Below, piece after piece: positions 20,008-37,738 of a stretch of DNA of 64,000 nucleotides. The notes beneath the pieces were generated by a model, which saw only the letters and a program-made list of their open reading frames with translations, made no database searches and was not told the DNA's origin. The position numbers and the translations under genes were made by a program. Numbering within the stretch: position 1 is the stretch's first letter; each line of letters opens with the position of its first letter. This DNA is from Jannaschia sp. W003 (GTDB lineage Bacteria; Pseudomonadota; Alphaproteobacteria; Rhodobacterales; Rhodobacteraceae), in assembly GCF_025144335.1 (NCBI RefSeq), contig NZ_CP083539.1:1055501-1119500 (forward strand). The letters run 5' to 3'.

Positions 20008-20012
20008 GGGGG

Positions 20013-21608: not shown

Positions 21609-21678
21609 CCGGCCCTTCCCCGTGGCGGGCCGAACGGCCCCTCGGGAACCGGGATAGGGGCCCCGCGCCGGCGCGGCC

Positions 21679-21692
21679 TTGATCGAGGTCAA
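21679..21692 (-). promoter_or_regulatory. FNR box upstream of ccoN
   Basis: TTGAT-CGAG-GTCAA, one mismatch to the FNR palindrome, 71 nt before the ccoN ATG and between it and fnrL. Suggests direct FnrL activation of ccoNOQP under low oxygen. Confidence 0.8.
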
Positions 21693-21705
21693 GCGCGCCG
21701 AGTGG

Positions 21706-22437
21706 TCAGGCTGGGAAGGCGCCGCCCCCGTCGTCGCCCGCCTCCGCGAGCAGGCGCGCGAGGTCGTCGCAGAGCACCTCCCGCGCGCCCTCGAGCCGGA
21801 TCACCCCGTCGCGGCGCAGGGCGGTGATCTGGCGGCTCACGGTCTCGATGGTCAGGCCGAGGTAGCTGGCCATGGCCTCGCGGGTGAGCGGCAGCGCGGC
21901 GCGCAGGGGGTGCGCGGCGGTGGAGGCCCGGCGCAGCACGATGGCGAGCAGGGTGGCGACCTTCTCGCGCGCGGTCTTGCGGCCCAGCAGCACCATCCAG
22001 TCGCGCGCCGCGTCCAGCTCGTCGAGCGACATCTCCAGCAGGCGGCGCGCCACGCGGGGCGTGTCGCGCATCATGGCCTCGAAGGCCGTGCGGTCGAACA
22101 GGCACATCGTGACGTCGGTCGCGGCGACCACCTCGTAGGGCGCATCCGCCCGCCCCGGGCGGCCCACGAAGTCGGAGGGCAGCATCAAGCCGACCATCTG
22201 CGTCCGCCCGTCCTCGAGCGAGCGGGTGAGCGTGGCGCAGCCCGAGACGATCGAGGCCACGAAGGGCAGCGCCTCGCCCTCCAGCACGATCGTCTCGCCC
22301 GCCTCCCAGCTGCGGTAGCTCTTCATGGCGGCGAGGCGCGCCAGCTCCACGCCCTCGCACGCGGCGCAGACCGCGCGGTGGCGGATCGGGCAGCGCAGGC
22401 AGTCCTGCGCGGCGACCTGGAGGTCGATGCGCGACAT
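21706..22437 (-). CDS. fnrL: FnrL, oxygen-sensing [4Fe-4S] CRP/FNR regulator
   Basis: A 243-residue CRP-family regulator with FNR cluster cysteines C13-x2-C16-x7-C24 at the N-terminus and a central cysteine in '[10 protein letters not shown]'. The C-terminal helix-turn-helix '[24 protein letters not shown]' has the E-x2-S-R recognition pattern for TTGA half-sites. It activates anaerobic and microaerobic genes; the FNR boxes near ccoN and ccoG are likely targets. The start at 22437 is chosen because it gives the family N-terminus MSRIDLQ. No hemN follows as in Rhodobacter. Confidence 0.93.
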
Positions 22438-22507
22438 GGACGAGTGTCCCACGCCCGCCGGCGCGCGGCAAGGCGCGGCGGAGGCCAAGCCGCACCGTCG
22501 ATCCCCC

Positions 22508-23344
22508 TCAGCAGGACAGCAGGAGCGGCACCGGGGCGTCGCGCAGGAGCGCGCTGGTGGTGGCGCCGAACAGGAATTCGTAGGCGCGCGAGTGGCCGAA
22601 GGCGCCGGCCACGAGCATGTCCGCCCCCACCTCGCGCGCCTCGCGCACCAGAACCTCGGCCACGGTGTCGTGATGGGGCTCGCGCTGGGTCATGACGACG
22701 TCGTGGCCGTGCCGGGCGAGCACGGCGCTCATCTCGATCATCGAGTGGTGGCGCATCGCGTCCAGGTCCCCGCCCACGTGGACGAGGTGGATCGCCGCGC
22801 CCTGCGCCAGGAGGGGCAGCGCGTCGAAGGCGGCGCGCGCCGCCTCGCGGGCGTCGGCATGGGCCATCACCACCCGGCGCCCGACGCCGCCTCCGATCCC
22901 CGCCTCGGGCACCAGCAGGACCGGGCGCCCGCCGCCGCGGACCACGCGCTCGGCGACGTGCCGGTGCTCGGAGGGCGCGTCCGCGCTGCCGGGAAGGGCC
23001 AGGAGCACGAGATCGGCGTTGCGGCACGCCACGGCCATCCGGTCCGCGGCGGCAAGGGGCGCGCCGCGCACGGTGCGCCACTCGCACCGCGCGCTGGCGT
23101 TTCCGGCCCGCTCGCGGAAGATCGCCTCGATCGCGTCGGCGCGGGCCGTCTGCGCGGCGTCGACCGCATCGCTCATGGACGGCGAGAAGTAGGCCTCCAC
23201 GCCGGGATAGACCATGATCCCCTCCAGCGTGTGCTGGGCGACGAGATGGGCGTCGAGGCGCTCCGCGAGGGCGAGGCCGGCGTCGGCGAGGCGCGCGGCG
23301 GTCGCCTTGTGCGACAGGTGGGCGAGGATGGTTCCGACGGTCAT
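22508..23344 (-). CDS. tandem-domain universal stress protein
   Basis: A 278-residue protein with two UspA domains, each with a beginning like 'TVGTILAHLSHKATAARLADAGLALA' and a C-terminal 'GADMLVAGAFGHSRAYEFLFGATTSALL', the typical ATP-binding G-x2-G-x9-G-S/T-like loop. In Rhodobacter a Usp of this type stands beside fnrL and ccoN and is induced by FnrL. RBS GGAGG precedes ATG 23344. An FNR-like half-conserved palindrome lies about 310 nt upstream. Confidence 0.88.
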   Translation of the reverse strand: MTVGTILAHLSHKATAARLADAGLALAERLDAHLVAQHTLEGIMVYPGVEAYFSPSMSDAVDAAQTARADAIEAIFRERAGNASARCEWRTVRGAPLAAADRMAVACRNADLVLLALPGSADAPSEHRHVAERVVRGGGRPVLLVPEAGIGGGVGRRVVMAHADAREAARAAFDALPLLAQGAAIHLVHVGGDLDAMRHHSMIEMSAVLARHGHDVVMTQREPHHDTVAEVLVREAREVGADMLVAGAFGHSRAYEFLFGATTSALLRDAPVPLLLSC

Positions 23345-23819
23345 GGGGCGTTCCTCCGGCTGCTTGCGTGGGGCGCGGGCCGGGGCGGCCCGCGCCGGGG
23401 CTCGGGATCGTGGCGGTGCAGGGCGGCACGACCAGCTCCGTCGGCGCGTCGCTCCCGGCGCCGGGCGGGGCGGACTCGACCGGGTCGCGGCCCGCCCGCC
23501 GGGCCCTCCGGACCGTCCCGGGGCAGCACCGTGATCGCGCCGCTCATGCGGTGGCCGGAGCTCCGGGGGAGGGCGGGGGAGAGGGGCGCGCATCGGAACG
23601 CTCCTTTGGATGCCTCGCCTCCGACCATGGGGCGTGCGGGACGCCCGCACCTTGCGCCATGTCAAACGCTCCCGGGCGACCGGAACGGGTGGTTGGCCCG
23701 GGTCAACGCAACGCAGGCCCGCCTTCCGTTTCCCCGGCCCCTGTCCCTATTCCGGCGAGGGCAGGGACCGGACGCTCCGCGTGGGGTGCGCGCCGGGCCA
23801 TGCGAACCGCGGCGCGCCC
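23345..23819. promoter_or_regulatory. 475-bp intergenic region with a weak FNR-like palindrome
   Basis: No convincing gene: open frames here have Arg/Pro/Gly-rich composition and no family signature. TTGCG-CCAT-GTCAA at 23652-23665 resembles an FNR box with three departures from the consensus and could act on the usp gene 308 nt away. Nothing else was recognised. Confidence 0.4.
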
Positions 23820-25172
23820 TCACTCCTCCTTGAATGCCCGCCACATGCTGTCGGAGATGGGCTTCGCGAGGTACTGCGCGAAGGTGCGCTCCGCGGTCTG
23901 GATCATGACCTCGGCGGGCATCCCGGGCGTGGGGGTGAACCCGCTCACCCTGCTCAGCTCCTCGCCGTCCAACGCGATCCGGGCGACGTAGATGTCGAGG
24001 GTGCTGCCCTCGACCTTCTCGGAGATCGCGTCGGCCGACACGTAGACCACGTGCCCCTCGAGGATCGGCGTGGTCCGCTGGTTGAGCGCCACGAGCCGGA
24101 CCGCCGCGATCTGCCCCAGCTCCACGCTGTCGATCTCGTTGCGCGAGATCTTGGCCTCCACGATGAGCGGCGCGCCGGTCGGCAGGATCTCGGCGATCGG
24201 CTTGCCGCTCTCGATGACGCCGCCGGGCGTGTTGTACAGGAGCCGGACGATCGTGCCGTCGACCGGCGCCTCGACCACGGCGCGGCGCAGGATGTTCCGG
24301 GCCGTGCGGGACTTCTCGCGAACGGAGTCGAGCTCGGCCTGGATCGCCTGGAGCTCCTCCAGCGCCACCTGCCGGTGCTCGGACCGCGCCTGGTCGATCT
24401 GGGTGCGGTGGCGGCTCTGCACCATCTCGATCTCCTCGATCTCCGCCTCCAGGCGCCCGATCTGGCCCTCGGCCTCGGCGATGGTGCGGTCGATCACGTT
24501 GATCTGCGTGCGCCGGACCAGTCCCTTCTCGAGGAGCTGCTGCTGCGATGCCTGCTCCTCGCCGAGGATCGCGAGCTGCCGCTCGTGCGAGTCGAGCTGC
24601 AGGCGGTAGCCGCCGGCGCGGATCTGCAGGGCCTCGATGTTGCGCTCGATCAGCGCGACGTCCTGCTCGAGCGCGCGCCGGGCCTCGCGGAAGTTCAGGC
24701 GCTGGCTGGCGATGATCGCCTCGACCTCCGGGTCGGTCGCCGCGGCGATCACGAGGCGGTCCGGCATCGTAACCGTGGCGGCGCCGTCGTGCTCCGCGAG
24801 GAGGCGGGCCTCGGTGGCCTCGAGGCGCACCTCGCGCAGGAAGAGCTCGCGCTCGTTGGCGAGCGCCGCCGTCTCGTCGAGCCTCAGGATCGGCGTGCCC
24901 GTCCTCACGCGGTCCCCTTCCGCGACGAGGATCTCGCGGATGATACCGCCCTCGAGGTGCTGCACGATCTTGTTCTGACCGGTGGCGACGAAGCTGCCCT
25001 GCGAGATCACCGCGGCCGCCAGAGGCGCCTGGAACGCCCAGACCCCGAAGCCGCCGAAGGCGCAGACCATGAGCGCGATCCCGAACTTCGCGTGGCCGCG
25101 GATGGACCGCGGGACCTCGTCGTACCATTCCGCCGCCGGGTGCGGGGCGAGGGGTGCGGGTGCGAGGCTCAT
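23820..25172 (-). CDS. HlyD-family membrane fusion protein of a type I secretion system
   Basis: A 450-residue periplasmic adaptor. One membrane span near residues 30-50, a lipoyl-like half motif ('KIVQHLEGGIIREILVAEGDRVRTGTPILRLDE'), a long coiled coil (about residues 125-285) and the C-terminal barrel with 'RRAVVEAPVDGTIVRLLYNTPGGVIESGKPIAEILP'. The family signature 'GFTPTPGMPAEVMIQTAERTF' is at the end. It links the inner-membrane ABC permease to a TolC-like channel, which is not in the window. It overlaps the ABC gene by ATGA and ends the minus-strand secretion operon. Confidence 0.92.
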   Translation of the reverse strand: MSLAPAPLAPHPAAEWYDEVPRSIRGHAKFGIALMVCAFGGFGVWAFQAPLAAAVISQGSFVATGQNKIVQHLEGGIIREILVAEGDRVRTGTPILRLDETAALANERELFLREVRLEATEARLLAEHDGAATVTMPDRLVIAAATDPEVEAIIASQRLNFREARRALEQDVALIERNIEALQIRAGGYRLQLDSHERQLAILGEEQASQQQLLEKGLVRRTQINVIDRTIAEAEGQIGRLEAEIEEIEMVQSRHRTQIDQARSEHRQVALEELQAIQAELDSVREKSRTARNILRRAVVEAPVDGTIVRLLYNTPGGVIESGKPIAEILPTGAPLIVEAKISRNEIDSVELGQIAAVRLVALNQRTTPILEGHVVYVSADAISEKVEGSTLDIYVARIALDGEELSRVSGFTPTPGMPAEVMIQTAERTFAQYLAKPISDSMWRAFKEE

Positions 25173-27310
25173 GTGGGGTCCTTCCGAGTCGCGGGCGTTC
25201 CCTGCGGGACCTGCCCGCCCGGGCGCGCGCTCTCCTGGATCTTGCGGAGCACCTCGGCGCGTTCGCCGAACAGGGCGACCTGCCCGTCGCGCAGGAGCAT
25301 CACCTTGTCGACCTCGTTGAGGAGCTGGGGCTTCTGCGTGATGGCCACCACGGTGATGCCGTTCTGACGGGCATGTCCCAGGGCGTTCGCCAGCGCCTTG
25401 TCGCCGGCGGTGTCGAGGTTGGAGTTGGGCTCGTCGAGCACCACGAGCCGGGGCGTCCCGAAGAAGGCGCGGGCGAGCGCGATGCGCTGCTTCTGTCCCC
25501 CCGACAGCGGCGCGCCGTCCGCCGACACGGTGGTCTCGTAGCCCTGCGGCAGGTTCGAGATCATCTCGTGCACGTCGGCGAGCACCGCCGCGTCGTGGAT
25601 CTGCTGGTCGGTCGCGTCGCGGCGCATCCGGCCGATGTTGTCCTTGATGGTGCCGGGAAAGAGTTGGACGTCCTGGGGCAGGTACCCGATCGACTCGCCG
25701 AACTGGCGCGGATCCCAGTTGCGGATGTCCATGAGGTCGAGGCGCACGTTGCCAGAGGTGGGAAGGATCGAGCCCACCAGCATCTTGCCCAGGGTGGTCT
25801 TGCCCGCGCCCGAGTTGCCGATCACCGCCAGCGTCTCGCCGGGGTTGAGCGAGAAGCTGACCGCGTTGAGCACGACCTGCTTGGTGCCGCCCGGGACGTA
25901 GAGCAGCCGCTCGACGTCGAGGCGGCCCTCGGGCCGCGGCAGGATCAGCTTCTCGAACTGGAGCCGCGACGACAGCAGCAGCGCGCTGATCCGCCCGTAG
26001 GCGGCGCGCGAGAGCAGGAACGCGTTCCACCCCTCGATGGAGCCCTCGATCGGCGCGAGGGCGCGGCCGGCGATGATGGATGCGGCGATCACCATGCCGC
26101 CCGTGATCTGCCCGTCGATCGCGAGGTAGGCGCCCCAGCCCAGCATGCTGATCTGCGTCAGCAGGCGGACCGCCCGCGAGATGGCCGCGAACACGATGTT
26201 GCGGTCCTGGGCGTGGACCTGGGCCGTCAGCGAGGCGGCCGTGTCGCGGCCCCAGATCGACACCGCCTCGGGGATCATCGCGAGCGCGTTGATGATCTGG
26301 CTGTTGCGCGACATCGAGTCGAGGTGCCCGTGGGCGCGCGACTGCGCGGCGTTCGCCTCGCCGAACAGCCCGGCGGTGGCCTTCTGGTTGCAGATCGCGA
26401 TCACGAGCAGGATCAGCGCGGTGACCACGACGATGGCGCCGAGGTCGGGATGGATCAGGAACACCGCGAAGATGAAGAGCGGCGCGAAGGGCACGTCGAG
26501 GAAGGAGATCAGCGTGCCCGAGGTCAGGAAGCCGCGGAGCTGCTGCAGGTCGCCGAGCACCTGGTACTCCCGCCCCGAGCCGTGCAGCGAGGCTGCCGCG
26601 GCGGCGCTGAGGACCGGCGCGCCCAGCCGCACCGCCAGCTCCACCGCCGTGCGCATCAGCATGAACCGCCGGACCGCATCGAACACCGCCTGGAGCGTCA
26701 CGGCGCCGACCATCACGATGGTCAGCATGATAAGCGTGTCCACCGAGCGCGAGGTCAGCACACGGTCCGAGATCTGGAACAGGTAGACCGGGATGGCGAG
26801 GATCAGCACGTTCGTCGCGCAGGTCATCAGCATCACGAACAGAAGGTTGCGCCGGATCGCGGCCCGCCCGAGGCGCAGGCTACGCCCGAAGTCCTGCGGC
26901 GGCGTCTTGCGGTGAAACCCGCCGATGCCGCCGCCGCCGCCGCCTCCGCCGCGATCGCCCTGGCCGCCCCCGCCGGTGGGCGTCCCCGAAGCCCGCAGCG
27001 GCTCGTTGGCGCGCTCCTCGATGGTGGTGCCCAGACGGTCCGTCGGCGAGGACGGCGTCACGCGGGCCTCGACCTCCGGCGGCAGCCGGCCGGTCTCCGC
27101 CTCGCCGGTCGCGTTTCCGAGGTCTCCTTCCGGGTCGGTCTTGCGGCCCTCGTCCGGAGCGGTGTCCGCGTCCGGGGATGCCGCGGGAGGGGGCTCCGCG
27201 ATGTCGCCCTTGGCGTCGTCCGGGGCATCGTCGCGCGCACCCACCCTGTCCGCCGTTCGCAGCCAGAGCGGGATGCGGGCGCCGGGGTCGTTGTCGAGTT
27301 GGTCTTTCAT
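25169..27310 (-). CDS. type I secretion ABC permease/ATPase with a long N-terminal extension
   Basis: A 713-residue PrtD-like exporter half-transporter: a membrane domain with six spans, then an ATPase domain with Walker A 'GNSGAGKTTLGKML' (about residue 495), signature 'LSGGQKQRIALARAF' (about 602) and Walker B 'RLVVLDEPNSNLD'. Unlike standard PrtD, the first roughly 150 residues are a disordered, acidic, Pro-rich stretch ending in a glycine run and 'IGGFHRKTPPQDFGRSLR'. This extension could bind a substrate or regulator. It lies 18 nt after the 694-residue gene, so the two are probably co-transcribed. Confidence 0.92.
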   Translation of the reverse strand: MKDQLDNDPGARIPLWLRTADRVGARDDAPDDAKGDIAEPPPAASPDADTAPDEGRKTDPEGDLGNATGEAETGRLPPEVEARVTPSSPTDRLGTTIEERANEPLRASGTPTGGGGQGDRGGGGGGGGIGGFHRKTPPQDFGRSLRLGRAAIRRNLLFVMLMTCATNVLILAIPVYLFQISDRVLTSRSVDTLIMLTIVMVGAVTLQAVFDAVRRFMLMRTAVELAVRLGAPVLSAAAAASLHGSGREYQVLGDLQQLRGFLTSGTLISFLDVPFAPLFIFAVFLIHPDLGAIVVVTALILLVIAICNQKATAGLFGEANAAQSRAHGHLDSMSRNSQIINALAMIPEAVSIWGRDTAASLTAQVHAQDRNIVFAAISRAVRLLTQISMLGWGAYLAIDGQITGGMVIAASIIAGRALAPIEGSIEGWNAFLLSRAAYGRISALLLSSRLQFEKLILPRPEGRLDVERLLYVPGGTKQVVLNAVSFSLNPGETLAVIGNSGAGKTTLGKMLVGSILPTSGNVRLDLMDIRNWDPRQFGESIGYLPQDVQLFPGTIKDNIGRMRRDATDQQIHDAAVLADVHEMISNLPQGYETTVSADGAPLSGGQKQRIALARAFFGTPRLVVLDEPNSNLDTAGDKALANALGHARQNGITVVAITQKPQLLNEVDKVMLLRDGQVALFGERAEVLRKIQESARPGGQVPQGTPATRKDPT

Positions 27311-27328
27311 GACATTCCGTTCCGCGGC

Positions 27329-29413
27329 CTAGGCCAGCATTCCTTGCATCACGTCGACGTCGCCGCCGGTGGTTGCCATGGCGGCGAGGGTCGCCTCCTG
27401 GATGTCCGCGGCGTCGACCAGACCGTCCGCCAGGAACGCGACGGCTTCCGAGGCCAGATCCTCCGCGTCGGGGATCGAGTCGATTAGGCTGGCCTGGTGG
27501 AGGAGGGCGTCCGTGTAGAGCTCGCCCCCGACCAGCACCTCCGAGTCGATGCCGAGGTCGGTGACGCTGGCGACGTTGATCTGGGTGTTCGCGCCCGTGG
27601 TGATCTTCGCGGCCTCGCCGGCCGCTCCGACCGCCAGGTCGCGCGCCGCGCTGACCAGGTCGGAGTCCCCGAGCACGTTCATTTGGTTGACCACGGTCAC
27701 CTCGACGAAGTCGCCCGCGATCCAGAGCGCGAGCAGGGGCATGCCCCCGTGCACGAGGAAGCCGTCGGCGATGCCCGAGAGGTCGGCGCCGCCGGCGGCG
27801 AGCGAAGCGCCGGCCGCCTCGAAGCCCGCCTTGAGCGAGGCGTAGGCGTCGATCCCGACCGTGCTGAGGGAGGCGACGTTCGCCTGGACGTTGCCGCCGG
27901 TCGCGAGCGCCGGCGCCGCACCGGCGGCGGACGCCCCGGACGGGACGGACGCCCCGGCGCCGGGAAGGACGATCGTGTCGGAATCGTAGAGCACGCTCGT
28001 CTGGTGGATCGTGGTCATCTTGACCATGTCCCCGCCGACGAAGATCACGTCGTAGGCCAGACCGAAGATCCCGAGGTCGGCGTCGTTGAACACCACGTTC
28101 TCGCCGGAGATGATGCGGCTCGACGCGCTCGTGACCGATACGGTGTCGGTGTCGGTCACGAAGATCTGCTGGTCGAACACGTTGTAGGACACGAGGTCGC
28201 CCTCGACGCGCGCGATCGCCCAGCCCGCCGGGGCGACGCCGCCCTCGGCCTCGGTGATCGGCTTGAACTGCGACTCCTGCTTCGAGAACGACGCCGCGTT
28301 GTAGCTGCGCGGCGCCTCGAAGCCCGGAACGCCCCCGCCTGCCGCCGGAGCTAGCGCGCCGTCGGCATCGCGCCCGATCACGACGTCCCGGTCGACCGTC
28401 GCCGCGACCTGGCTGATCGCCTCGACCTCGACCGCATCGCCCATCACCGCGATCACGGGCGCATCCACCCAGGCCGAGGTGACGTTGACGGCGTTGACGA
28501 CGAGGTTGCCGCCGGTCACGACCTCGCTCTCGAACGCGTCCCCGTCGTCCTCGTCCTCGTCCTCCTCCGGGGCGGGAAGGGGAAGCGCGGGCAGCGCGTC
28601 GACCGCCTCGCCGTCGACGAACTTCGCGGCGTGGCTCTCCACGTCCTCGACGACGTGGACGGTCCACGTCCCGCCGCCGCCGGCGTCCGCCGCCTTGCCG
28701 CCGAACGGGGCGACGGCGTCGGTCGAGACCGCCCTGGCCCCGGCGGCCCATTCGGTCTCGCCGAACGCCCCGGGCTCCGCGATGGCCCCGGAGGGAACGC
28801 CGTGCGCCGCCTGGGCCTCCTCCGCCACGGCAGCGGCGAGCGAGACATGGTGCGCGAGGCCGGGCGCGCTGCCCGTATCGGGCGGCTCGAGGGTTCCGAA
28901 CACGTCCGCGTCGGACAGCGCGGCGGTCTGCACCGTGATCGTCGCGACGCTGCCTGGGGGGGGCATCGGCGGCATCGGCGGCGCCACGGGTCCGGGCGTG
29001 GGCTCCGGGACCGGCACCGGCGTCGGCGTGAGGGCCGGCGGGACGCCCGGTCCGGGCCCGTCCGTCCCCGGAGGGTTCGCGGGCACGTCCGGCGCCGCGG
29101 GCGTGTCGGGTTCGTCCTGCCAGCCCCAATCGGCCGGAAGGGGCGTCAGCTCCGGCGGCGAGATCAGGTGCTCGACCTCGGGGGTGCCGGGCAGCATCTG
29201 CTCGATCCCGGCGTCGTAATCGAGACCGGGGTCGAAGCCTTCTAGCTGGTGGGAAGAGGTGATGTGGGGGTGGTGGCCCCCAAGCGGTCCGGGGTCTTCG
29301 GCCCGGGCGGCGTGCCCTGCGAACGAGTCGTGCTGGGCGCGCATCCGCGCCTCTTCGACCGCGACCGCGAAGAGGCCGATGAATCTCGCGATGATGCCAG
29401 TGGTAGCGTCCAA
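27329..29413 (-). CDS. large repetitive protein of a type I secretion operon, likely substrate or surface partner
   Basis: A 694-residue protein with no signal peptide. N-terminal quarter: Pro/Glu-rich linker ('PAPPTLTP...VPEPTPG'-like). From about residue 300 to the end are at least four degenerate repeats of the form G-x-N-x2-x-N-x-A-x5-G-I-D, e.g. 'TGGNVQANVASLSTVGIDAY', 'TGANTQINVASVTDLGIDSE' and 'ISGENVVFNDADLGIFGLAY', each followed by a beta-rich 'hydrophobic-Q-x-VL-x-DSD' segment. These look like stacked beta-solenoid units. It carries no RTX nonapeptides. Position directly before the ABC-HlyD pair and absence of signal peptide suggest T1SS export, but this is unproven. I do not recognise a named family. 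Confidence 0.7.
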   Translation of the reverse strand: MDATTGIIARFIGLFAVAVEEARMRAQHDSFAGHAARAEDPGPLGGHHPHITSSHQLEGFDPGLDYDAGIEQMLPGTPEVEHLISPPELTPLPADWGWQDEPDTPAAPDVPANPPGTDGPGPGVPPALTPTPVPVPEPTPGPVAPPMPPMPPPGSVATITVQTAALSDADVFGTLEPPDTGSAPGLAHHVSLAAAVAEEAQAAHGVPSGAIAEPGAFGETEWAAGARAVSTDAVAPFGGKAADAGGGGTWTVHVVEDVESHAAKFVDGEAVDALPALPLPAPEEDEDEDDGDAFESEVVTGGNLVVNAVNVTSAWVDAPVIAVMGDAVEVEAISQVAATVDRDVVIGRDADGALAPAAGGGVPGFEAPRSYNAASFSKQESQFKPITEAEGGVAPAGWAIARVEGDLVSYNVFDQQIFVTDTDTVSVTSASSRIISGENVVFNDADLGIFGLAYDVIFVGGDMVKMTTIHQTSVLYDSDTIVLPGAGASVPSGASAAGAAPALATGGNVQANVASLSTVGIDAYASLKAGFEAAGASLAAGGADLSGIADGFLVHGGMPLLALWIAGDFVEVTVVNQMNVLGDSDLVSAARDLAVGAAGEAAKITTGANTQINVASVTDLGIDSEVLVGGELYTDALLHQASLIDSIPDAEDLASEAVAFLADGLVDAADIQEATLAAMATTGGDVDVMQGMLA

Positions 29414-29496
29414 ACCGGGTACTCCAACACAATCAGAGACCTGAAGACGAGGTTCCTTCGGGTCCGCGGGTCGTCCATGGCCTCCGGTTCTGTTGC

Positions 29497-29523
29497 GGCG
29501 GGGCCGGAAGAACCGGCCCCGCC
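29497..29523 (-). terminator. hairpin between the 943-aa and 694-aa genes
   Basis: An 11-bp perfect stem (GGCGGGGCCGG with CCGGCCCCGCC) around AAGAA, starting 19 nt after the 943-residue gene. It may make that gene far more strongly transcribed than the downstream secretion genes. Confidence 0.65.
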
Positions 29524-29541
29524 CGTCTCAGTGGGGTGCGA

Positions 29542-32373
29542 TCAGACGGTGTCTCCGCCGTCGTCGCCCGAGTAGGTCGAGCTCATCGAGCCGCCGACCA
29601 GGGTCATGTCGACCTCGTTGCCGAGCACGTTGGCACCCTGGACCACGGTCTGGTTGAACGCGTCCGTGGTGAGCTCGGCGCTGGCGTCGGCCATCGACTG
29701 GCCGGTGACGTAACCGTCGTCACCGTTGCCCGAACCCCAGGAGCCGCCGTTGCCGCCCCCGCCGCCGGCACCGCCGGTGGCCGCACCGCCGTAGCCGGCG
29801 ATCGCCTCGCCGATGTCGGCCATGCCGCCCGTGGCCGCGCCGCCGGACGCGGCACCGCCCGCGGCACCCGCGGCCGTGGCCGCACCGCCCGCGCCGGTGT
29901 CGCCGCTCATCGCGGACGAGGTGCTCTCGCCCGACGCGGTCGTGGTGGCGGTGTTCGCGGAGTCCGCGGCGCCACCGTAGCCCGCGATGGCATCGGCCAT
30001 CGCGTCGCCCGAGCCGTCGACCGTCAGGTCGGACATGGCGTCCGACATGCCGCCGTCGCCGGCATTGGCTTCGGAGCTTCCGTTGCCGGCCCCGTCGGCC
30101 GCGCCTTCGAACGCCCCGTTGCCGGATCCGGCGTCACCGCCGGCGGCATCGGCGTTGCCCGTGCCGGACGCCTCCGCAGCCGCGTCCGAGGCCGCGTCGA
30201 TCGCGCCGCCCGCGGCACCCGCCGCGTTGGACGTTCCCGTCCCGGTGCCGTCCGCCGTGGTGTCGCCGTCGACACCCGAGGCGCCTCCGTCCCCACCGTT
30301 GGCATCCGCGTCCGCGTCGCCGGACGCTTCGGCCGTCGAGTCGGTGTCGGCGTCCGAGGTGCCGCCCGCGCCGCCGGCGCCGTCGGCCGTGCCGGTCCCG
30401 GTGCCGGTCGCATCCGAGTCGGCCATCGAGTCGGACGTGCCGCCCGCGCCGCCCGTGCCGTCACCGGTGCCCGTGCCCGTGCCAGCGCCGTCGGCGCGGC
30501 CCGATTCCGGACCCTCGCCGCCCGCGCCGCCCGTGCCGCCGAGCCCGCCGGCGCCGCCGAGGCCACCGGACCCGCCGAGACCGCCCAGGCCGCCGGTGCC
30601 ACCCAGGCCGCCGGTGCCGCCCGCGCCGCCTGCGCCGCCCGGATCACCGCCGTCGCCGCCGTTGGCGTCACCGCCGTTGCCGTCGCCGCCGTCGCCGCCT
30701 TCGGCACCGTCGCCGCCGTCACCGCCTTCGCCGCCATCGCCGCCTTCACCGCCCGCGCCGCCGTCGCCTTCGGCGTTGGATCCGGCGAGACCCGCGCCGA
30801 GGCCGAGGCCCAGGCCGGTTCCGTTGCCGCCGTCCGCGTCGCTGTCGCTGTCGGCGCCGGACAGACCCGCGCCGAGGCCGAGGCCGGTCGCGGTGCCATC
30901 GCCGCCGTCGGCATCGCCCGACGTGCTGTCGCCGTCGCTGTCGGACGCGCCAAGGCCGAGACCGATCGCGCCGGTGTCACCGCTGTCGCCCGCGGTGGAG
31001 TCGTTGTCGGACTGCGAGGCGCCGAGACCGACGCCCAGACCTGCCGAGTTGCCGTCGCCACCGTCGCCGGAGTCGCCGTCGGCCGTCGAGTCGCTGTCGG
31101 ACGCGCCGAGGCCGACGCCGATCGCGCCGGTGTCGCCGCTGTCGCCGCCGTCACCGCTCACGGTGCCGTCGGACGAGGCCGCGCCGAGCCCGAGCCCGAG
31201 CGAGCCGGCATCGCCGCCCTCGCCGCCATCCGAGGTCGCGGTCGAGGTGCCGTCGCCGTCACCGAGGCCGAGCGCCAGCGCGCCGCTGTCGCCGCCCTCG
31301 CCGCCGTCGGTGTCGCTGGCCGAGGTCGAGGTGCCGTTGCCGAGGCCGAGGCCGATCGAGTTCGCGTCACCGCCCTCGCCGCCCTGGCCGCCGGCCGCGG
31401 TCCCGTTTCCGCCCTCGCCGCCGTTACCGCCGTTGGAGTTCCCGTCACCACCGGTGCCGTTCCCGCCGATGGCTTCGCCACCCTCGCCGCCGTAGTTGTC
31501 GCTGCCGCCCTCGCCGCCGCCGGAGTCGGCGTCGATGCCGTCATCGCTCGTCGCGGTGCCGCCGTTGACCGTGCCGGCCCCGTCGAACGTCCCGTCGTTG
31601 GAGAGCGAGATGTCGGAGAGGTCGTCGTCGTCGGACAGCGTGTTCGACTGGACGTTGATGATGCCGGCATCGTTGCCTTCACCGCCCAGCGAGTCGGACA
31701 GCGCGCCCGACAGGTCGGGATCGTTGCCCGGATCGTAGGCGAGATTGCCTTGGGCAAAGATGTTGCCGTAGATCGACGACGAGCCGGAGGCATCGAAGTC
31801 CGCGAAGTCGTTATCGTCCGGCGGGCCTTCCATGCTCATCGTGGCGTCGAGGTTCACGTCGACGTTCGAGGCGTTGGCGTTCGAGACGTCGCTCGACGCG
31901 AAGTGCTCGTGGGTCGACGTGTTGTCGTTGCTGTTGGCGTTGTCCGACGCGTTGGCGTTGGAGTTGAAGTTCTCGCCGATGCTCGAGCTCGCCGAGTTGG
32001 AGTTCGATCCGGAGTCGGAGTTGGAGTTCGATCCCGAATCGGAGGCGGACGCCGCGTCAGCCGCGGAGCCGGAGTCCGAATTGGAGTTCGATCCCGCGTC
32101 GGAGTTCGAATTGGAGTTCGAACCGGCGTTCGCGCCGGCGTCCGCGTCGGAGTTCGCTCCCGAATCGGACGTGCTGGCCGCGTTGCCGGCGCCGGCGCCT
32201 GTGGCGTCCGCTCCGCTGTCGGACGAGCTGTCATTCACGTTGACGTTCTCGTTCGTCGAGGTCTGATCCTGGTGCTGATGTTGGTGCTGGTGCTGGTGCT
32301 GCCCGTGCAGGTCGTCGAGGTCATGGTCGCCGTCGGCGATCTGGAACAGCTGCTGATTGTTGCGTTCTGACAT
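29542..32373 (-). CDS. 943-aa acidic Gly/Ser/Asp-rich low-complexity protein
   Basis: No signal peptide. Composition changes in blocks: N-terminal 'DGDHDLDDLHGQ' followed by an HQ repeat (4-5 units), a Ser/Asn/Asp-rich region to about residue 160, a less repetitive bridge (about 160-285), a long Gly/Asp zone with recurring 'G-L-G-L-G-A-S-D-S-D' and 'GGEGGDGG' units (about 285-590), and a Gly/Ala/Ser zone to the end. The C-terminus 'NQTVVQGANVLGNEVDMTLVGG' resembles the 'NQMNVLGDSD' segments of the 694-residue neighbour. Glycine runs are reminiscent of polyglycine-II sandwich proteins such as PE_PGRS, without homology shown. Cysteine is absent. A secreted structural or matrix protein is a plausible role, inferred from context only. 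RBS GGAG is present. Confidence 0.75.
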   Translation of the reverse strand: MSERNNQQLFQIADGDHDLDDLHGQHQHQHQHQHQDQTSTNENVNVNDSSSDSGADATGAGAGNAASTSDSGANSDADAGANAGSNSNSNSDAGSNSNSDSGSAADAASASDSGSNSNSDSGSNSNSASSSIGENFNSNANASDNANSNDNTSTHEHFASSDVSNANASNVDVNLDATMSMEGPPDDNDFADFDASGSSSIYGNIFAQGNLAYDPGNDPDLSGALSDSLGGEGNDAGIINVQSNTLSDDDDLSDISLSNDGTFDGAGTVNGGTATSDDGIDADSGGGEGGSDNYGGEGGEAIGGNGTGGDGNSNGGNGGEGGNGTAAGGQGGEGGDANSIGLGLGNGTSTSASDTDGGEGGDSGALALGLGDGDGTSTATSDGGEGGDAGSLGLGLGAASSDGTVSGDGGDSGDTGAIGVGLGASDSDSTADGDSGDGGDGNSAGLGVGLGASQSDNDSTAGDSGDTGAIGLGLGASDSDGDSTSGDADGGDGTATGLGLGAGLSGADSDSDADGGNGTGLGLGLGAGLAGSNAEGDGGAGGEGGDGGEGGDGGDGAEGGDGGDGNGGDANGGDGGDPGGAGGAGGTGGLGGTGGLGGLGGSGGLGGAGGLGGTGGAGGEGPESGRADGAGTGTGTGDGTGGAGGTSDSMADSDATGTGTGTADGAGGAGGTSDADTDSTAEASGDADADANGGDGGASGVDGDTTADGTGTGTSNAAGAAGGAIDAASDAAAEASGTGNADAAGGDAGSGNGAFEGAADGAGNGSSEANAGDGGMSDAMSDLTVDGSGDAMADAIAGYGGAADSANTATTTASGESTSSAMSGDTGAGGAATAAGAAGGAASGGAATGGMADIGEAIAGYGGAATGGAGGGGGNGGSWGSGNGDDGYVTGQSMADASAELTTDAFNQTVVQGANVLGNEVDMTLVGGSMSSTYSGDDGGDTV

Positions 32374-33033
32374 GGCGTCTTACTCCGCGCGCAACGATGT
32401 CGACCGCCAATCCATACAAAGCGGACATTGCCATCGGCTGCGCATTAATGATGAACATGGATCGACGCGGATTCCGATGCGGGGGAAGGCGCGCCGTCGT
32501 ATCTCGAACTTCTCGATACCTCCCGCTTGTGCACTCGTAACAGGGGCGCGAAACAACCGGCATTCACACTGGAATGCGTGTCGGAATCGATTTCCCCACA
32601 GGCGCGCCGCTCCGTAATCCGGCGCCCGGACGGCCGTGCCGCCTCGGTCCGGAAAGTGTGTGCCAATATCGGCAGGAGAAAAATACATCGAGTTGCGTGC
32701 CCGTCGGATAGTCGGCGCAAGTATATGTTTTTGTTGAAATTACCGAAGGTTATTCAGATCTCGTGGCGTATTGCCGTCCGGGCGTCAGGGGCGCTTAATT
32801 AACCCTCCGTTTACGCACGTTAACCGAACGGTTATGCTGCGGGCGAGGGCGCGACGGGATGCGGGATCGCATTCTTGGAAATTCCTGCGCGGTCTTGGCC
32901 GTGCTTGGAGCAAGTATGTTGCCCCTGCGTCAACCGTATGATAATATGGGATTTGCTAGGTTCGATGCGCGATGATTGCGCGCACCCCGATTGAAGTGGC
33001 TGCCATTTCCTCTTTGCACCAAGGCTACATATT
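32374..33033. promoter_or_regulatory. 660-bp divergent regulatory region, comparatively AT-rich
   Basis: No gene is supported here. It separates the 943-residue gene (minus) from the LuxR-like gene (plus). It holds the palindrome TAACCG-AA-CGGTTA (32821-32834), TTAATTAA (32795-32802), an inverted repeat TGCGCG/CGCGCA (32966-32971 and 32979-32984) in the presumed leader of the regulator, and several A/T-rich stretches (32721-32760). It is the least GC-rich stretch of the window and probably contains several promoters and operators. Confidence 0.6.
32821..32834. promoter_or_regulatory. perfect inverted repeat, candidate operator
   Basis: TAACCG-AA-CGGTTA with 6-bp arms, in the middle of the divergent regulatory region, about 200 nt before the LuxR-like start and 450 nt from the 943-residue gene. 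It is a suitable size for a dimeric HTH regulator; the protein is unknown. Confidence 0.5.
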
Positions 33034-33717
33034 ATGATGAGTAAGTTGGGCGTAGAGCCATTTCACTACGAACGTACCACGTCCGGGCAGGGCGCCTATG
33101 CGCGGCTGCACCTGATCGGATCGTTCCCGTCGCTCTCGGACCGCTCCGTGCTGCACCTGGCGTCCGCGGCCGGCTGCCGCAGGGTGCAGCGGTTCGAGGC
33201 GCTGGGGGACGTAGGGGCCGCCGACGAATCCGGCGCACTGACCCTGATCGACGCGGAACTCCTCGGGGCGGCGGGCGCCGTCGAGCGGATCGAGGCCCTC
33301 GCCGACCACGGCGCCGCCGCCCTATGCTACGACGCCGCGACCGATCCGGCGCCGCTGCGCCGGGCGCTCGGGGCGGGGCGGCTGGCGTCGGTCTCGGTCC
33401 TGAAGCTCGGCGTCAGCTTCGAGGAGCTGATGTCGGCCATCGACCTGATCGCCGGCGGGTCGACCTACTTCGCCCCCGAGATCGTCGCGGCCCTGCTCCG
33501 GACGGACAAGCCCTGCGAGCTCCGGTTCGATCCGCTGACGGAGCGCGAGGTCGAGGTGCTCAGCCGGGTCGCCCAGGGAAAGAGCAACAAGGCGGTGGCG
33601 CGCGACCTGTCGATCACCGAGCACACGGTGAAGCTGCACGTCCACCACATCCACCGGAAGATCGGGGTCTGCAACCGCACGGCCGCGGCGGGCTGGTACC
33701 TGTCGCGGCAGTCGTGA
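33034..33717 (+). CDS. LuxR/FixJ-type regulator with degenerate receiver (CsgD-like)
   Basis: A 227-residue protein with a C-terminal LuxR helix-turn-helix 'DPLTEREVEVLSRVAQGKSNKAVARDLSITEHTVKLHVHHIHRKIG', a strong match. The N-terminal half resembles a response-regulator receiver at its end ('SVSVLKLGVSFEELMSAIDLIAGGSTYFAPEIVAALL'), but an acidic pocket and phospho-aspartate are not obvious. That layout is seen in CsgD, which controls matrix genes. It stands divergent from the large repetitive-protein operon and is the natural candidate for its regulator. No AHL-binding domain is present. An alternative ATG is at 33037. Confidence 0.85.
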   Translation: MMSKLGVEPFHYERTTSGQGAYARLHLIGSFPSLSDRSVLHLASAAGCRRVQRFEALGDVGAADESGALTLIDAELLGAAGAVERIEALADHGAAALCYDAATDPAPLRRALGAGRLASVSVLKLGVSFEELMSAIDLIAGGSTYFAPEIVAALLRTDKPCELRFDPLTEREVEVLSRVAQGKSNKAVARDLSITEHTVKLHVHHIHRKIGVCNRTAAAGWYLSRQS

Positions 33718-33736
33718 CCGCGCCGGCCGGGATCCG

Positions 33737-34264
33737 ATGACCCCCGCGGATCCCGGCGGCGGCGCCGTCCCGTTCGACGAGTTCCTCCTGCTCGTGGGCA
33801 AGCTGAACTACTCGTGGACGAACACCGAGAGCCTTCTCATCCACCTGATCGCGCGGCTGGTCGGGTGCGACGACCAGACCGCCACGGTCATGTTCCTCAC
33901 GCTGAACTCGACGCGCGCGCGGCTGGACCTGGTGGAGCGGCTGGCCAAGCTCGAGCGCGTGCCCGCGGAGCGGCGCGAGACTATCCTCGCCCTCACGTCG
34001 CGGTTCGCGAAGCTCTCGGGCCTGCGCAACCGCTACAGCCACTGCATCTACTCCTTCGACCAGAACAGCGGGGCGATGCGCACGATCCTCATGCGGATCG
34101 CGGACCGGAAGCACAGCATCAAGGTGGGGCAGACGAGCGACATCGATCGCTCCGCCGCCCGCGAGGTGCAGGACGCCATCGACGCGATCGCCGAGCTGAA
34201 CATCGACATCTGGCGCGCGGTGGGCGAGGCGTTTCCGGACCAGCCCGCCAAGGGCGCCGGGTAG
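33737..34264 (+). CDS. HEPN-like protein of unknown function
   Basis: A 175-residue, mostly helical soluble protein with no known named family. It holds R97-N98-R99-Y100-S101-H102 in 'SGLRNRYSHCIYSF', the R-N-x3-H motif used by HEPN ribonucleases. The preceding helices 'TRARLDLVERLAKLERVP...ILALTSRFAKL' fit the HEPN layout, and the N-terminal 'NYSWTNTESLLIHLIARLVG' is typical of such relatives. It is 20 nt after the LuxR-like gene and probably co-transcribed with it. RNase activity is inference from one motif; no antitoxin gene was found. Confidence 0.6.
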   Translation: MTPADPGGGAVPFDEFLLLVGKLNYSWTNTESLLIHLIARLVGCDDQTATVMFLTLNSTRARLDLVERLAKLERVPAERRETILALTSRFAKLSGLRNRYSHCIYSFDQNSGAMRTILMRIADRKHSIKVGQTSDIDRSAAREVQDAIDAIAELNIDIWRAVGEAFPDQPAKGAG

Positions 34265-34292: not shown

Positions 34293-36002
34293 CTAGGCCG
34301 ACAGCGCCCTCGCGGCCTCGCTCTGGCTGAGGAACACCTGCCCCGTGAGGTGCGCGAGGAAGTCGGTCCGGGCGAGGCGGTCCATGACGGGCCCCTTCAC
34401 CTCCGACAGGTGCAATGCCACGCCCATGTCGCGCAGGCGCGCGACGAGCGCCTCGAGGCTCTCCAGCGCGCTCAGGTCCACGGCGTTCACGGCCGAGCAC
34501 ATCAGCACCACGTGGCGCAGGGCGGGGCGCTCGGCGGCGAGGGCGAGGACGTGCGCCTCCAGGCCTTGGGCGTTCGCGAAGTAGAGGCTTTCGTCGATGC
34601 GCACCGAGAGGACGGCCGGGTCGGTCTCGACATGGTGGCGCTCGACGTTGCGGAAGTGCTCCGTGCCCGGCACCCGCCCCACCACGGCGACGTGGGGCCG
34701 CGAGGTGCGCCACAGGTGGGTAGCCAGCGACACCAGCACCCCGGCGGCCACGCCCGGCTCCACGCCGAGCAGGAGCGTGGCGAGGATCGTGACGGCCACG
34801 GCGGCGAAGTCGGCGCCGCTGTAGGCCCAGGCCCGGCGCAGGATCGCGAGGTCCACGAGCGAGAGCACGGCGACGATGATGGTGGCCGCCAGCACCGCGT
34901 CGGGCAGGTAGTGGAGGAGCGGCGTCAGGAACAGCGAGGCGCCCAGCAGGCCGAGCGCGGTGAGGATGCCCGCCGCCTGCGTCGCCGCGCCGGCGTCGAA
35001 GTTCACCACCGAGCGCGCGAAGCCGCCCGTGACCGGAAAGCCCCCGGTGAAGGCGGCGCCGATGTTGGCGGCCCCGAGGCCGATCAGTTCGCCGTCGGGG
35101 TCGATGCGCTCGCGGCGCTTGGCGGCGAGGGTCTGGGCGACCGAGACGGACTCCACGAACCCGATCACCGCGATGGCTGCGGCCGAGCCGGCGAGGGCCA
35201 GCCACAGGTCCGGCGCGAATCGGGGCAGGGTGAGGGGCGGCAGGCCCGCGGGCACGTCCCCGACGATGCGCACGCCCGCGAGGTCGAGGCGGAGCATCCA
35301 CACCGCGAGCGTGGCACCCGCGACGGCGAGGATCGGCCCCACGCGCACCGCGATGGCGGCCGGGCGCTCGGCCACGCCGAGGCGGCGCAGGAGCGGCCCG
35401 AGGCCCCGCCGGACCCAGAAGAGGAAGCCGAGCGCGCCCGCCCCGATGGCGAGGGTGGGTCCGTGAACGTCTCCGAGGTTCGCACCCAGCGACAGCGCCA
35501 GCTCGGGCAGGGTGTGGCCGTGGGCCTCGATGCCCAGCACGTGGCGGAGCTGGCTTGCGGCGATCAGGATTCCGGAAGCGGTGATGAAGCCCGAGATCAC
35601 GGGATGACCGAGGAAGTTGGCCAGCACGCCGAGGCGCAGCACCCCCATCGCCAGCAGCATCGCGCCCGACAGGAGCGCGAGGACGAGGGCAGCGGCGACG
35701 AACTCCGGCGATCCCGGCTCGGCCACGCGCCCCGCCGCGGCCGCCGTCATCAGCGACAGCACGGCCACGGGGCCGACCGCGAGCGTCCGGCTAGTGCCGA
35801 AGAGGGCGTAGAGGACGATGGGCAGGATCGACGCGTAGAGACCCGCCTCGGGCGGCAGCCCCGCCAGCATCGCGTAGGCCAGCGACTGGGGCACCAGCAT
35901 GATCGTCACGATCACGGCGGCCAGCGCGTCGGCGCCGAAGGCCGCGCGGTCGTAGCGCCGGCCCCAGTCCAGGGCCGGCACGAAGCTGCGGAGGCGGTGC
36001 AT
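34293..36002 (-). CDS. SulP-family anion transporter with STAS domain
   Basis: A 569-residue permease with the SulP start ('MLVPQSLAYAMLAGLPPEAGLYASILPIVLYALFGTSRTLAVGPVAV'), 10-14 membrane spans, and a C-terminal STAS domain ('VVLMCSAVNAVDLSALESLEALVARL'). SulP members move sulfate, bicarbonate or other anions. In the context of a persulfide-oxidising operon it probably exports sulfite or sulfate, but substrate and direction cannot be read from sequence. It is 1 nt from the rhodanese gene. Confidence 0.92.
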   Translation of the reverse strand: MHRLRSFVPALDWGRRYDRAAFGADALAAVIVTIMLVPQSLAYAMLAGLPPEAGLYASILPIVLYALFGTSRTLAVGPVAVLSLMTAAAAGRVAEPGSPEFVAAALVLALLSGAMLLAMGVLRLGVLANFLGHPVISGFITASGILIAASQLRHVLGIEAHGHTLPELALSLGANLGDVHGPTLAIGAGALGFLFWVRRGLGPLLRRLGVAERPAAIAVRVGPILAVAGATLAVWMLRLDLAGVRIVGDVPAGLPPLTLPRFAPDLWLALAGSAAAIAVIGFVESVSVAQTLAAKRRERIDPDGELIGLGAANIGAAFTGGFPVTGGFARSVVNFDAGAATQAAGILTALGLLGASLFLTPLLHYLPDAVLAATIIVAVLSLVDLAILRRAWAYSGADFAAVAVTILATLLLGVEPGVAAGVLVSLATHLWRTSRPHVAVVGRVPGTEHFRNVERHHVETDPAVLSVRIDESLYFANAQGLEAHVLALAAERPALRHVVLMCSAVNAVDLSALESLEALVARLRDMGVALHLSEVKGPVMDRLARTDFLAHLTGQVFLSQSEAARALSA

Positions 36003-36003
36003 C

Positions 36004-36369
36004 TCAGCCTTCGACGGGCAGGCCGGCCTTGCGCCAGCCCTCGAGGCCTCCCTCGATCACGTCGGCCTCGTATCCCATGCGCCGGAGCTGGGCTGCGGCC
36101 ATGGCCGCGCGGGCACCCGAGGCGCACAGGACGTGGACGGCGCGCGCGTCGACGAGGCGGCGCTCGGCGGTGGGCAGATCCGGGTCGGCGCGCGACTCCA
36201 GCACGCCGCGCGGCACGTGGAGCGCGCCCTCGACGCGACCCTTCTCCTCCAACTCGCCCGACTCGCGCACGTCGAGGATCAGTCCCCCGGCGTCCTGCGC
36301 CTCCTGCGGGGAGACGCTTCCGACCTGCGCCTTCGCCTCGGCCACCAGGTACTTCATGCTCATCGGCAT
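36004..36369 (-). CDS. single-domain rhodanese
   Basis: A 121-residue cytoplasmic rhodanese domain with substrate loop 'VHVLCASGARAAMAAAQLRRMGY', where the persulfide-bearing cysteine sits in C-A-S-G-A-R. 'ILDVRESGELEEKGRVEGALHVPRGVLE' is the family's N-terminal signature. It transfers sulfane sulfur, here likely between persulfide substrates and the dioxygenase-like neighbour. The start at 36369 follows GGAG by 7 nt. Confidence 0.93.
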   Translation of the reverse strand: MPMSMKYLVAEAKAQVGSVSPQEAQDAGGLILDVRESGELEEKGRVEGALHVPRGVLESRADPDLPTAERRLVDARAVHVLCASGARAAMAAAQLRRMGYEADVIEGGLEGWRKAGLPVEG

Positions 36370-36381
36370 CGCGGCACTCCT

Positions 36382-37293: not shown

Positions 37294-37294
37294 G

Positions 37295-37735
37295 TCAGGC
37301 TCCTTGCGTTGCGGGGGCGGGGGCGAGGGCGCGCTTCGCCGGACCGCCCAGGACGAGGCCCAGGACCATCGCGACGAGGAAGACGAGCGCGCCCGCGTCG
37401 AGCGAGGGCAGGGCCGTCCAGGCGGGGCCGGGGCAGAAGCCGCCGATGCCCCATCCGGTGCCGAAGAGGGCGGCGCCTACCAGCAGCGGGCGGTCTACGT
37501 CCCGAGCCGAGGGGATGTCGAAGTCCGGCATCGCCAGGGGGCTCGCGCGGCGCCAGGCGAAGCGGTAGCCGAGGAAGGCCGTCACGCTCGCCCCGCCCAT
37601 CACGAAGGCGAGGCTGGGGTCCCACGGACCCAGCACGTCGAGGAAGTTCAGCACCTTCGCGGGGTTCGACATGCCCGAGACGACGAGGCCGAGGCCGAAC
37701 ACGAGGCCGGCGAGGAATCCGAGGAACGCGCGCAT
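37295..37735 (-). CDS. YeeE/YedE-family membrane protein (PmpB-like)
   Basis: A 146-residue membrane protein with four spans, family segments 'GLVFGLGLVVSGMSNPAKVLNFLDVLGPWDPSLAFVMGG' and 'GTGWGIGGFCPGPAWTAL', where the C-P-G cysteine probably handles thiosulfate or persulfide sulfur. Two-subunit YeeE proteins (PmpA/PmpB) import or export sulfur compounds. It follows the partner gene after 3 nt. Confidence 0.9.
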   Translation of the reverse strand: MRAFLGFLAGLVFGLGLVVSGMSNPAKVLNFLDVLGPWDPSLAFVMGGASVTAFLGYRFAWRRASPLAMPDFDIPSARDVDRPLLVGAALFGTGWGIGGFCPGPAWTALPSLDAGALVFLVAMVLGLVLGGPAKRALAPAPATQGA

Positions 37736-37738
37736 CGG

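Follow-up and report, generated by a model that had tools for sequence, protein, structure and literature searches.

Comparison with described systems

Several described bacterial systems share features with a six-gene locus in Jannaschia sp. W003, which lies in a 64,000-nucleotide stretch of contig NZ_CP083539.1 (positions 1,055,501 to 1,119,500; the window, meaning this whole stretch). The locus encodes an ATP-binding cassette (ABC) exporter, a HlyD-type adaptor and two large acidic proteins, here called R694 and G943; divergent from these are a LuxR-type regulator (REG) and a small HEPN-like protein. In the curli system, csgBA and csgD are divergent and about 0.7 kb apart. Curli and Fap resemble the Jannaschia locus in their two repeat subunits, in the divergent LuxR-type regulator at about this distance and in beta repeats whose Asn and Gln are conserved, with FapC among the non-significant structural matches of R694. 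Unlike these systems, the locus has no curlin match in Pfam and no CsgG in its genome, its export is presumed to be of type I, and by a crude measure R694 and G943 have no Sec-like N-terminus.

Systems of the PrtD/PrtE (PrsDE) type have ABC and HlyD proteins that fall in the same subfamilies by model cut-offs, and likewise a TolC-type gene elsewhere, whereas the locus described here adds two substrate families without a Pfam or NCBIfam model as well as a linked divergent regulator and HEPN-like gene. The toaDE and tobDE pairs of Rhizobium leguminosarum 3841 are also PrsDE-like pumps, as is the ABC-HlyD pair here, and are described in the cited passage as having no known substrate (PMC2275737). 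BapA/BapBCD of Paracoccus denitrificans and LapA-type adhesins likewise pair a type I exporter and a surface protein that is acidic, of low complexity and required for biofilm (PMC5588039). Unlike our locus, the BapA system has a single agglutinin with Asp-Ala repeats and its own outer-membrane gene, and the cited passages mention no second substrate, regulator or HEPN-like gene (PMC5588039). The bapBCD genes were predicted to be the sole type I system of P. denitrificans Pd1222 (PMC5588039); the module described here is present on a plasmid of P. denitrificans HAMBI 2443 (L074). The Cdz system of Caulobacter has two Gly-rich proteins, a type I exporter and divergent operons, as here, and differs in that its substrates are 84–86 residues long with glycine zippers and its immunity protein is a small multi-pass membrane protein, according to the passages seen (PMC5380434).

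As far as we searched, in the open-licence literature, the six-gene set is undescribed; it joins a known kind of transporter to new substrate families and unexpected companions. The first-pass annotation of this DNA had likewise been aware of no named system with this combination, and we recognised no description of it in that literature, subscription papers apart. Our preferred reading, to which we give a probability of about 0.55, is of a type I secretion locus whose two acidic export products make up a structure of the surface or matrix, under divergent control.

Six genes recur as a unit

The six genes are one conserved, co-inherited module. We scanned 67 loci with profiles of all six genes: 63 from a genome collection, three from relatives and the window itself (L001–L007, short pieces of loci that were refetched longer, were left out). 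Gene order and strand were as in the window in 54 of the 67. REG was absent by profile in three Mesorhizobium loci and in two Salinarimonas loci, the latter with the HEPN-like gene downstream. L063 and L064 have REG downstream and the HEPN-like gene on the same strand upstream; in L011 both are downstream. Five loci were incomplete, four of which stop at a contig end; the fifth, L010, is from the genus of the window. There the ABC gene is split into two frames, the N-terminal part of R694 is unclear and no G943 or HEPN-like gene was found in 6.8 kb upstream. As the ABC frame is split and these two genes are lacking, L010 looks decayed.

Next to R694, the ABC gene was found in 66 of the 67 loci (the remaining one ends at a contig end), G943 in 65 (all except L010 and L020, which is cut by a contig end) and the HEPN-like gene in 63, where three of the four exceptions are cut by a contig end and the fourth is L010. 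The first-pass annotation had suggested that the two large proteins are linked to the ABC-HlyD pair, and that a lack of homologs near such a pair in other genomes would speak against this. These counts show the opposite, and the recurrence of all six genes in dozens of genomes places the linkage beyond chance.

The 67 loci were located via R694, and a search with the HEPN-like protein served as an independent check. Of 394 genomes in the window's family, 34 contain R694 and 36 the HEPN-like protein, and all 34 R694 genomes fall within those 36 (hypergeometric P of 5e-47, relatedness ignored). The two genomes with the HEPN-like protein and without R694 are G320, where the HEPN-like gene and REG lie at the very end of a contig, and G120, with a weak, distant match (E 8e-5). 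R694 had matches in 4 of 60 relatives and in 3 of 20 genomes of the same genus, the window's own genome included in both counts.

Exporter and presumed substrates

By their subfamily models the ABC and HlyD proteins belong to type I secretion systems of the PrtD/HlyD type; the first reading had called them a type I pair. The ABC protein scores 691.5 bits with the NCBIfam model TIGR01842 (PrtD, cut-off 510.15) and the HlyD protein 367 bits with TIGR01843 (cut-off 208.65). The ABC protein has a low-complexity N-terminal extension ahead of its membrane domain, which varies between loci. The genome also has a TolC-type gene, outside the module (TIGR01844, 270.5 bits; cut-off 225.15).

R694 and G943 are the presumed substrates of this exporter; the transporter families point to their export, and composition and analogy suggest a role at the surface or in a matrix. 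The median isoelectric point of both is at the floor of the program (4.05), and Lys and Arg are scarce in both. Cys is absent from 50 of 67 R694 and 56 of 65 G943 proteins, and the N-terminus has no hydrophobic stretch in 65 of 67 and 64 of 65, respectively, by a crude 12-residue hydropathy measure. Both contain the motif QxNxLxDxD (202 sites in 67/67 R694, 39 sites in 37/65 G943; fewer than 1.5 expected in each). The window's R694, G943 and HEPN-like proteins have no match in Pfam or NCBIfam.

We aligned 48 of 64 full-length R694 proteins, none of which matched Pfam at E 0.01, and no relative of R694 was found in the PDB. The N-terminus is conserved (..AHFIG..) and contains a helical segment. 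Some five imperfect repeats, mostly beta, follow it, with the pattern GxNxxxN ... [VI]xVGGD ... QxNxLxDxD, with the last part containing Qx5DxD. Profile comparisons with hhalign gave homology probabilities of 98 for repeats 2 and 4 (E 1e-12), 95 for 2 and 6, 94 for 5b and 3 and 87 for 4 and 6, and weaker values for 3 and 4 (55%) and 5a and 2 (47%). Residues 148–175 (repeat 1, motif at 154–174) are not supported as a sixth repeat, having the motif only and a probability of 2% against repeat 3. The C-terminal tail is conserved as SEAVAFLAD ... DxMQxxLA, with an invariant Asp in the 48 aligned proteins; the window's protein ends in DVMQGMLA. A profile search for R694 yielded nine proteins, which is no measure of abundance as its first step was word-limited.

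The AlphaFold check of the repeats that the first-pass annotation had proposed gave an AlphaFold2 model that is mostly beta in the repeats, with two short helices, and a predicted local distance difference test (pLDDT) score of at least 90 for 230 of 694 residues. Ten-residue means of pLDDT are mostly 85–96 over residues 300–640, with links down to 55–81. The model is poor over the first 150 residues, the N-terminal helices excepted, and over the last 45.

For G943, 32 of 36 non-redundant proteins were aligned. Lys and Arg together make up 0.2% of the protein. It is low-complexity, but two parts are kept across genera, a QxNxLxDxD patch near residue 242 and the last ~70 residues (AFNQ..GANVLGN.VDMT.VGG). 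There was no convincing Pfam match, with one unrelated weak match in 1 of the 32 members. In two loci the G943-type gene is present in two tandem copies (L078, 14497–16506; L064, 5975–8848), as expected for a bulk subunit.

Membership of the curli family was rejected, with no curlin match in Pfam for the 48 R694 (E 0.01) or the 32 G943 and no enrichment of Qx10Q. The CsgG pore (PF03783) is absent from the window's genome and matched in 4 of 14 control genomes. Partial curlin-like motifs are enriched in the 67 R694 (N-x-h-x-h-x-Q, 62 vs 22.9 expected; N-x5-Q-x-G, 32 vs 7.3) and not in G943.

HEPN-like protein

The HEPN-like protein is a core part of the module. It is present in every locus able to show it except the decayed L010, and with a median identity of 55% to the window's protein (30.5% for R694) it is the best conserved of the non-transport proteins. 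Its gene mostly lies close behind REG on the same strand, at a distance between -20 and 62 nt in 56 loci.

The HEPN superfamily, most familiar from systems of defence and of the toxin-antitoxin kind, is defined by an Rx4-6H motif. In 49 aligned proteins (of 63), the Rx4H motif has R97 in 47 (Lys in the other 2), and N98 and H102 in all 49. The predicted structure (pLDDT 89.4) combines a bundle of helices and three short strands, and a structure search with it gave no convincing solved relative; no HEPN structure was among the matches listed, which excludes nothing. The name HEPN-like, given in the first-pass annotation, is thus kept as a label derived from the conserved motif.

The profile of the HEPN-like protein matched 2224 of 7996 scored candidates; gene context is not part of this figure, from which we draw no module count. 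Five weak matches (L085–L089) have no module nearby and are therefore distant relatives in other settings. Four of them keep R[ND]xxxH (L087 and L088 are identical). In L085 (genome G476, one contig) the match stops at profile position 94 of 163, and no Rx4H is visible in the open frame. The neighbours of these five genes may reveal the ancestral function of the protein.

Intercistronic hairpin

A hairpin between G943 and R694 is conserved in the module. Among the 65 loci with both genes we examined 64 (L064, with a spacer of 1920 nt, was skipped), allowing loops of 3–8 nt. The longest stem was at least 9 bp in 57 of 64 gaps, against 5.4 expected from dinucleotide shuffles, and at least 11 bp in 52 against 0.8. 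The same measure gave 22/64 downstream of HlyD, 12/63 downstream of the HEPN-like gene, 5/63 upstream of G943 and 7/58 upstream of REG. Compared with its shuffles, the window's own gap folds more favourably (z -2.3), with 3 of 200 shuffles equally good.

Stem sequences vary widely from genus to genus, which argues that the hairpin is conserved as a structure. Within Ruegeria (seven sequences) variation was too small for covariation to be counted, and a search of Rfam gave no match. As no T run follows the window's hairpin, an ordinary terminator is unlikely there; the natural guess is that the hairpin gives differential stability or partial attenuation of the message.

Regulator and divergent promoter

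The first-pass annotation described REG as a LuxR/CsgD-type regulator with a degenerate receiver. The LuxR-type part of this stands, as REG has a GerE/LuxR helix-turn-helix domain (Pfam GerE, 66.8 bits), whereas with the CsgD equivalog model it reaches 58.2 bits (cut-off 250), so that CsgD-like can be used only as a loose label. The N-terminal half has no receiver-domain match in Pfam and may be a degenerate or unrecognised receiver. These features were read alongside an alignment of 28 of 49 non-redundant REG proteins.

The divergent spacers between REG and G943 have a median length of 664 bp. Word counts in 45 of the 52 divergent spacers of 300–900 nt (near-copies removed) pointed to TTAA-containing words. 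Exact TTAA-N7-TTAA, which we take to be the CtrA consensus, is present in 11 of the 45 promoters against 0.9 expected, and the other 12 spacings occur in 0–2 sequences each; the box was picked from these same promoter sequences, so that the spacing control is internal. There are 11 exact boxes in 29.7 kb of promoter region and 6 in 454 kb of flanks. No sigma-70-like promoter was found in our search of the region. For Dinoroseobacter, the searchable text of one paper mentions CtrA sites at luxI2/R2 and at flagellar genes, and a text search of it finds no TTAA (PMC6473078).

Two further words stood out in the same 45 spacers, from which they were also chosen. With one mismatch, GTTCTAGAAC occurs in 6 spacers (0.2 expected) and with two mismatches in 16 (8.3 expected), and GAATAGCTG with one mismatch in 20 (4.8 expected). 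The spacers of L031, L061, L065 and L067 contain the exact palindrome GTTCTAGAAC about 400–450 bp upstream of G943, and it is a candidate operator for REG in this subgroup.

Proposed function and alternatives

In the secretion reading that we prefer, the PrtD-type ABC protein and HlyD, with a TolC encoded elsewhere, would export R694 via its conserved C-terminal tail, and G943 would very probably leave by the same pump. Outside the cell, R694 would fold as a stack of beta repeats and G943 would provide a flexible, highly acidic, Gly-rich bulk, and together they would make a surface or matrix structure for adhesion, biofilm or a capsule-like coat. Control of the operon would lie with the divergent REG and its HEPN-like companion, and in some of the species the CtrA-type box may link the divergent promoter to the cell-cycle or motile/sessile programme. 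Through stabilisation or attenuation of the message, the hairpin after G943 probably leads to more G943 than R694 and pump protein.

A number of results weigh against this. Secretion, localisation and the matrix role are argued from protein families, composition and analogy. A Foldseek search with the R694 model against solved structures gave nothing significant (best E 0.077, probability 0.02), and as R694 thus resembles no solved structure significantly, the word matrix draws on composition and analogy. Beta-helix or solenoid proteins, together with the FapC amyloid, make up most of the top rows of that search, and since none is significant, a solenoid-like shape of R694 is an impression from the model. 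A profile comparison by hhalign gave a probability of at most 25% for G943 and R694, which does not establish them as homologs. What links G943 to the exporter is its position and composition, and its C-terminus ends unlike that of R694. REG is not indispensable, as it is absent by profile in the three Mesorhizobium, two Salinarimonas and Ensifer loci. The CtrA-type box is barely enriched when one mismatch is allowed (18/45 vs 12.8 expected, standard deviation 2.7), and the window's promoter has no exact box and only a one-mismatch box, which means little by itself. The HEPN-like protein could also be something other than a HEPN protein. Its weak Pfam matches spread over 33 families (E up to 1 among 49 members), and the commonest of them is the helix-turn-helix family PF13556 (HTH_30), in 7 of 49 members with a best E of 0.00055.

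Among the alternatives, all of which we consider unlikely, the one that survives best keeps the rest of the secretion reading and makes the HEPN-like protein a secretion chaperone or export partner that keeps both substrates unfolded, instead of a regulator. The protein is small, helical and well conserved, and it is found in every locus but one that is able to show it, even where REG is absent. In most loci, however, its gene comes just after REG and on that strand, away from the substrate operon, and the Rx4H motif is also kept in distant homologs with no module nearby.

Less likely still is that R694 and G943 belong to the RTX/LapA/BapA kind of Ca2+-dependent type I adhesins, with RTX repeats that have been lost or degraded. 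The transporter is of the same kind, the proteins are acidic, and the repeated Qx5DxD clusters of R694 could bind Ca2+. GGxGxD is enriched in the 65 G943 (155 observed vs 79.4 expected), but the full RTX nonapeptide is not: tandem GGxGxDxUx was counted 9 times against 9.9 expected in these and 0 times against 0.8 in the 67 R694, and RTX repeats were rejected. So was a LapA-type N-terminal retention module, for which the NCBIfam model NF033682 gave the only, weak match of R694 (1 of 48 members at E 0.003, the window's protein not being that member). BapA of P. denitrificans has its own bapBCD, including the outer-membrane gene (PMC5588039, as far as seen), while the present module is also found on a P. 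denitrificans plasmid.

We regard contact-dependent antagonism as improbable as well. Here R694 and G943 would be antibacterials held at the surface, as in Cdz, and the HEPN-like or another small protein would give immunity. Immunity proteins usually diversify along with their toxin, whereas the HEPN-like protein (median 55%) is better conserved than R694 (30.5%). The N-terminal part of the HEPN-like protein is fairly hydrophobic (12-residue hydropathy of at least 2.0 in 20 of 63). The patchiness of the module (34/394 genomes) and the presence of the HEPN-like gene on plasmids in several genera would suit such a role. According to the passages seen, Cdz of Caulobacter is a two-protein type I system with divergent operons that forms surface aggregates, as this reading would have it, but CdzC and CdzD have 86 and 84 residues (PMC5380434), against 694 and 943 here.

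More speculative again, and in our view rather improbable, is that the two proteins leave by the type I pump and are an extracellular fibre or matrix class of their own, and that the HEPN-like protein, as an RNase with a HEPN fold or as an RNA-binding protein, acts on the hairpin and so sets the ratio of the exported proteins. If true, this would be a dedicated post-transcriptional control of matrix composition. Finally, although low-complexity open reading frames (ORFs) may be spurious in a window of 73% GC, it is almost inconceivable that the six genes are adjacent by accident or through an annotation artefact, as G943 patches are conserved across genera, gene order is repeated in 54 of 67 loci, and synteny and co-occurrence together rule out accidental linkage.

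If the secretion reading is true, the module would be an unnamed surface system shared by many alphaproteobacteria of marine and soil habitats, with P. denitrificans, Tritonibacter and Ensifer among its carriers. A well-known kind of pump would gain two substrate families that no model covers, and the module could explain some orphan type I pumps. A HEPN-like protein at ~55% median identity beside an apparent cell-surface locus would be unexpected for its superfamily. The sharp border of the module, the conserved hairpin and the promoter box are each open to direct tests.

Taxonomic range and genomic surroundings

Clustering of the flanking ORFs of at least 110 residues from 70 loci (the 67 and three plasmid loci) gave no family present in more than 16, and the unit therefore consists of these six genes. 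The largest of these families, in 16 of 70 loci, looks from its members like other ABC/HlyD transport genes. Polysaccharide genes were considered as partners from the GalE/glycosyltransferase neighbourhood in the Sulfitobacter indolifex annotation. They were rejected as core partners, as the flank families common to L011, L039, L041, L072 and L075 occur in five or six loci only.

The first-pass annotation looked to Rhodobacterales for relatives. The module does occur there, and its range extends to Mesorhizobium, Ensifer, Roseibium and Salinarimonas. The HEPN-like gene was found in 6 of 337 genomes drawn class-wide and in 9 of 299 drawn phylum-wide, all within the window's class. All seven strong matches outside the family lie beside R694 and/or G943 (six by R694, and L080 by G943 at a contig end). 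Plasmid records of P. denitrificans, S. indolifex and Ensifer adhaerens carry the module; REG was not found by profile in the Ensifer plasmid locus, and the annotation of the Sulfitobacter plasmid calls R694, G943 and the HEPN-like protein "hypothetical protein". A quick HlyD tree, in which the copy of a congener (L009) groups with Pseudoruegeria and Salipiger and the window's copy is unplaced, hints at horizontal movement of the module; the tree has local-support values only and several long branches, and L010 was left out.

In the window, the coordinates and lengths of the genes, the divergent pair and the 11-bp hairpin of the first reading were all confirmed on the sequence (Table 1), as were the ATGA overlap, with the HlyD start at 25172 and the end of the ABC stop codon at 25169, and the gap of 18 nt between ABC and R694. 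The gap between G943 and R694 is 128 nt.

Table 1. Positions of the module's features in the window
Feature	Position	Strand	Basis
HlyD-type periplasmic adaptor (membrane fusion protein), 450 aa	23820..25172	-	TIGR01843 above cut-off
PrtD-type ABC exporter, 713 aa	25169..27310	-	TIGR01842 above cut-off, match from residue 151
R694, acidic repeat protein, 694 aa, TTG start	27329..29413	-	Alignments, model, repeat homology, motif places
Hairpin between G943 and R694, 11-bp stem, 5-nt loop	29497..29523	-	Conserved stem, folding compared with shuffles
G943, Gly/Ala/Asp/Ser-rich acidic protein, 943 aa	29542..32373	-	Conserved patches in alignment
Divergent promoter region, 660 bp	32374..33033		One-mismatch CtrA-type box at 32799-32813
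REG, LuxR/NarL-type regulator, 227 aa	33034..33717	+	GerE 66.8 bits, alignment
HEPN-like companion, 175 aa	33737..34264	+	Conserved RNRYSH (Rx4H) at residues 97-102, model

Adjoining the module, the minus strand at 34293–38194 carries sulfur-related genes, namely a SulP/STAS sulfate permease, a rhodanese, a metallo-beta-lactamase-fold protein, DUF6691 and Sulf_transp (YeeE-like). The other flank (19189–23665, minus strand) encodes a heme-copper oxidase subunit I, a CRP/FNR-type regulator and a universal stress protein, together with an ORF that by eye resembles the cytochrome-c subunit of the oxidase, and is perhaps a microaerobic-respiration neighbourhood.

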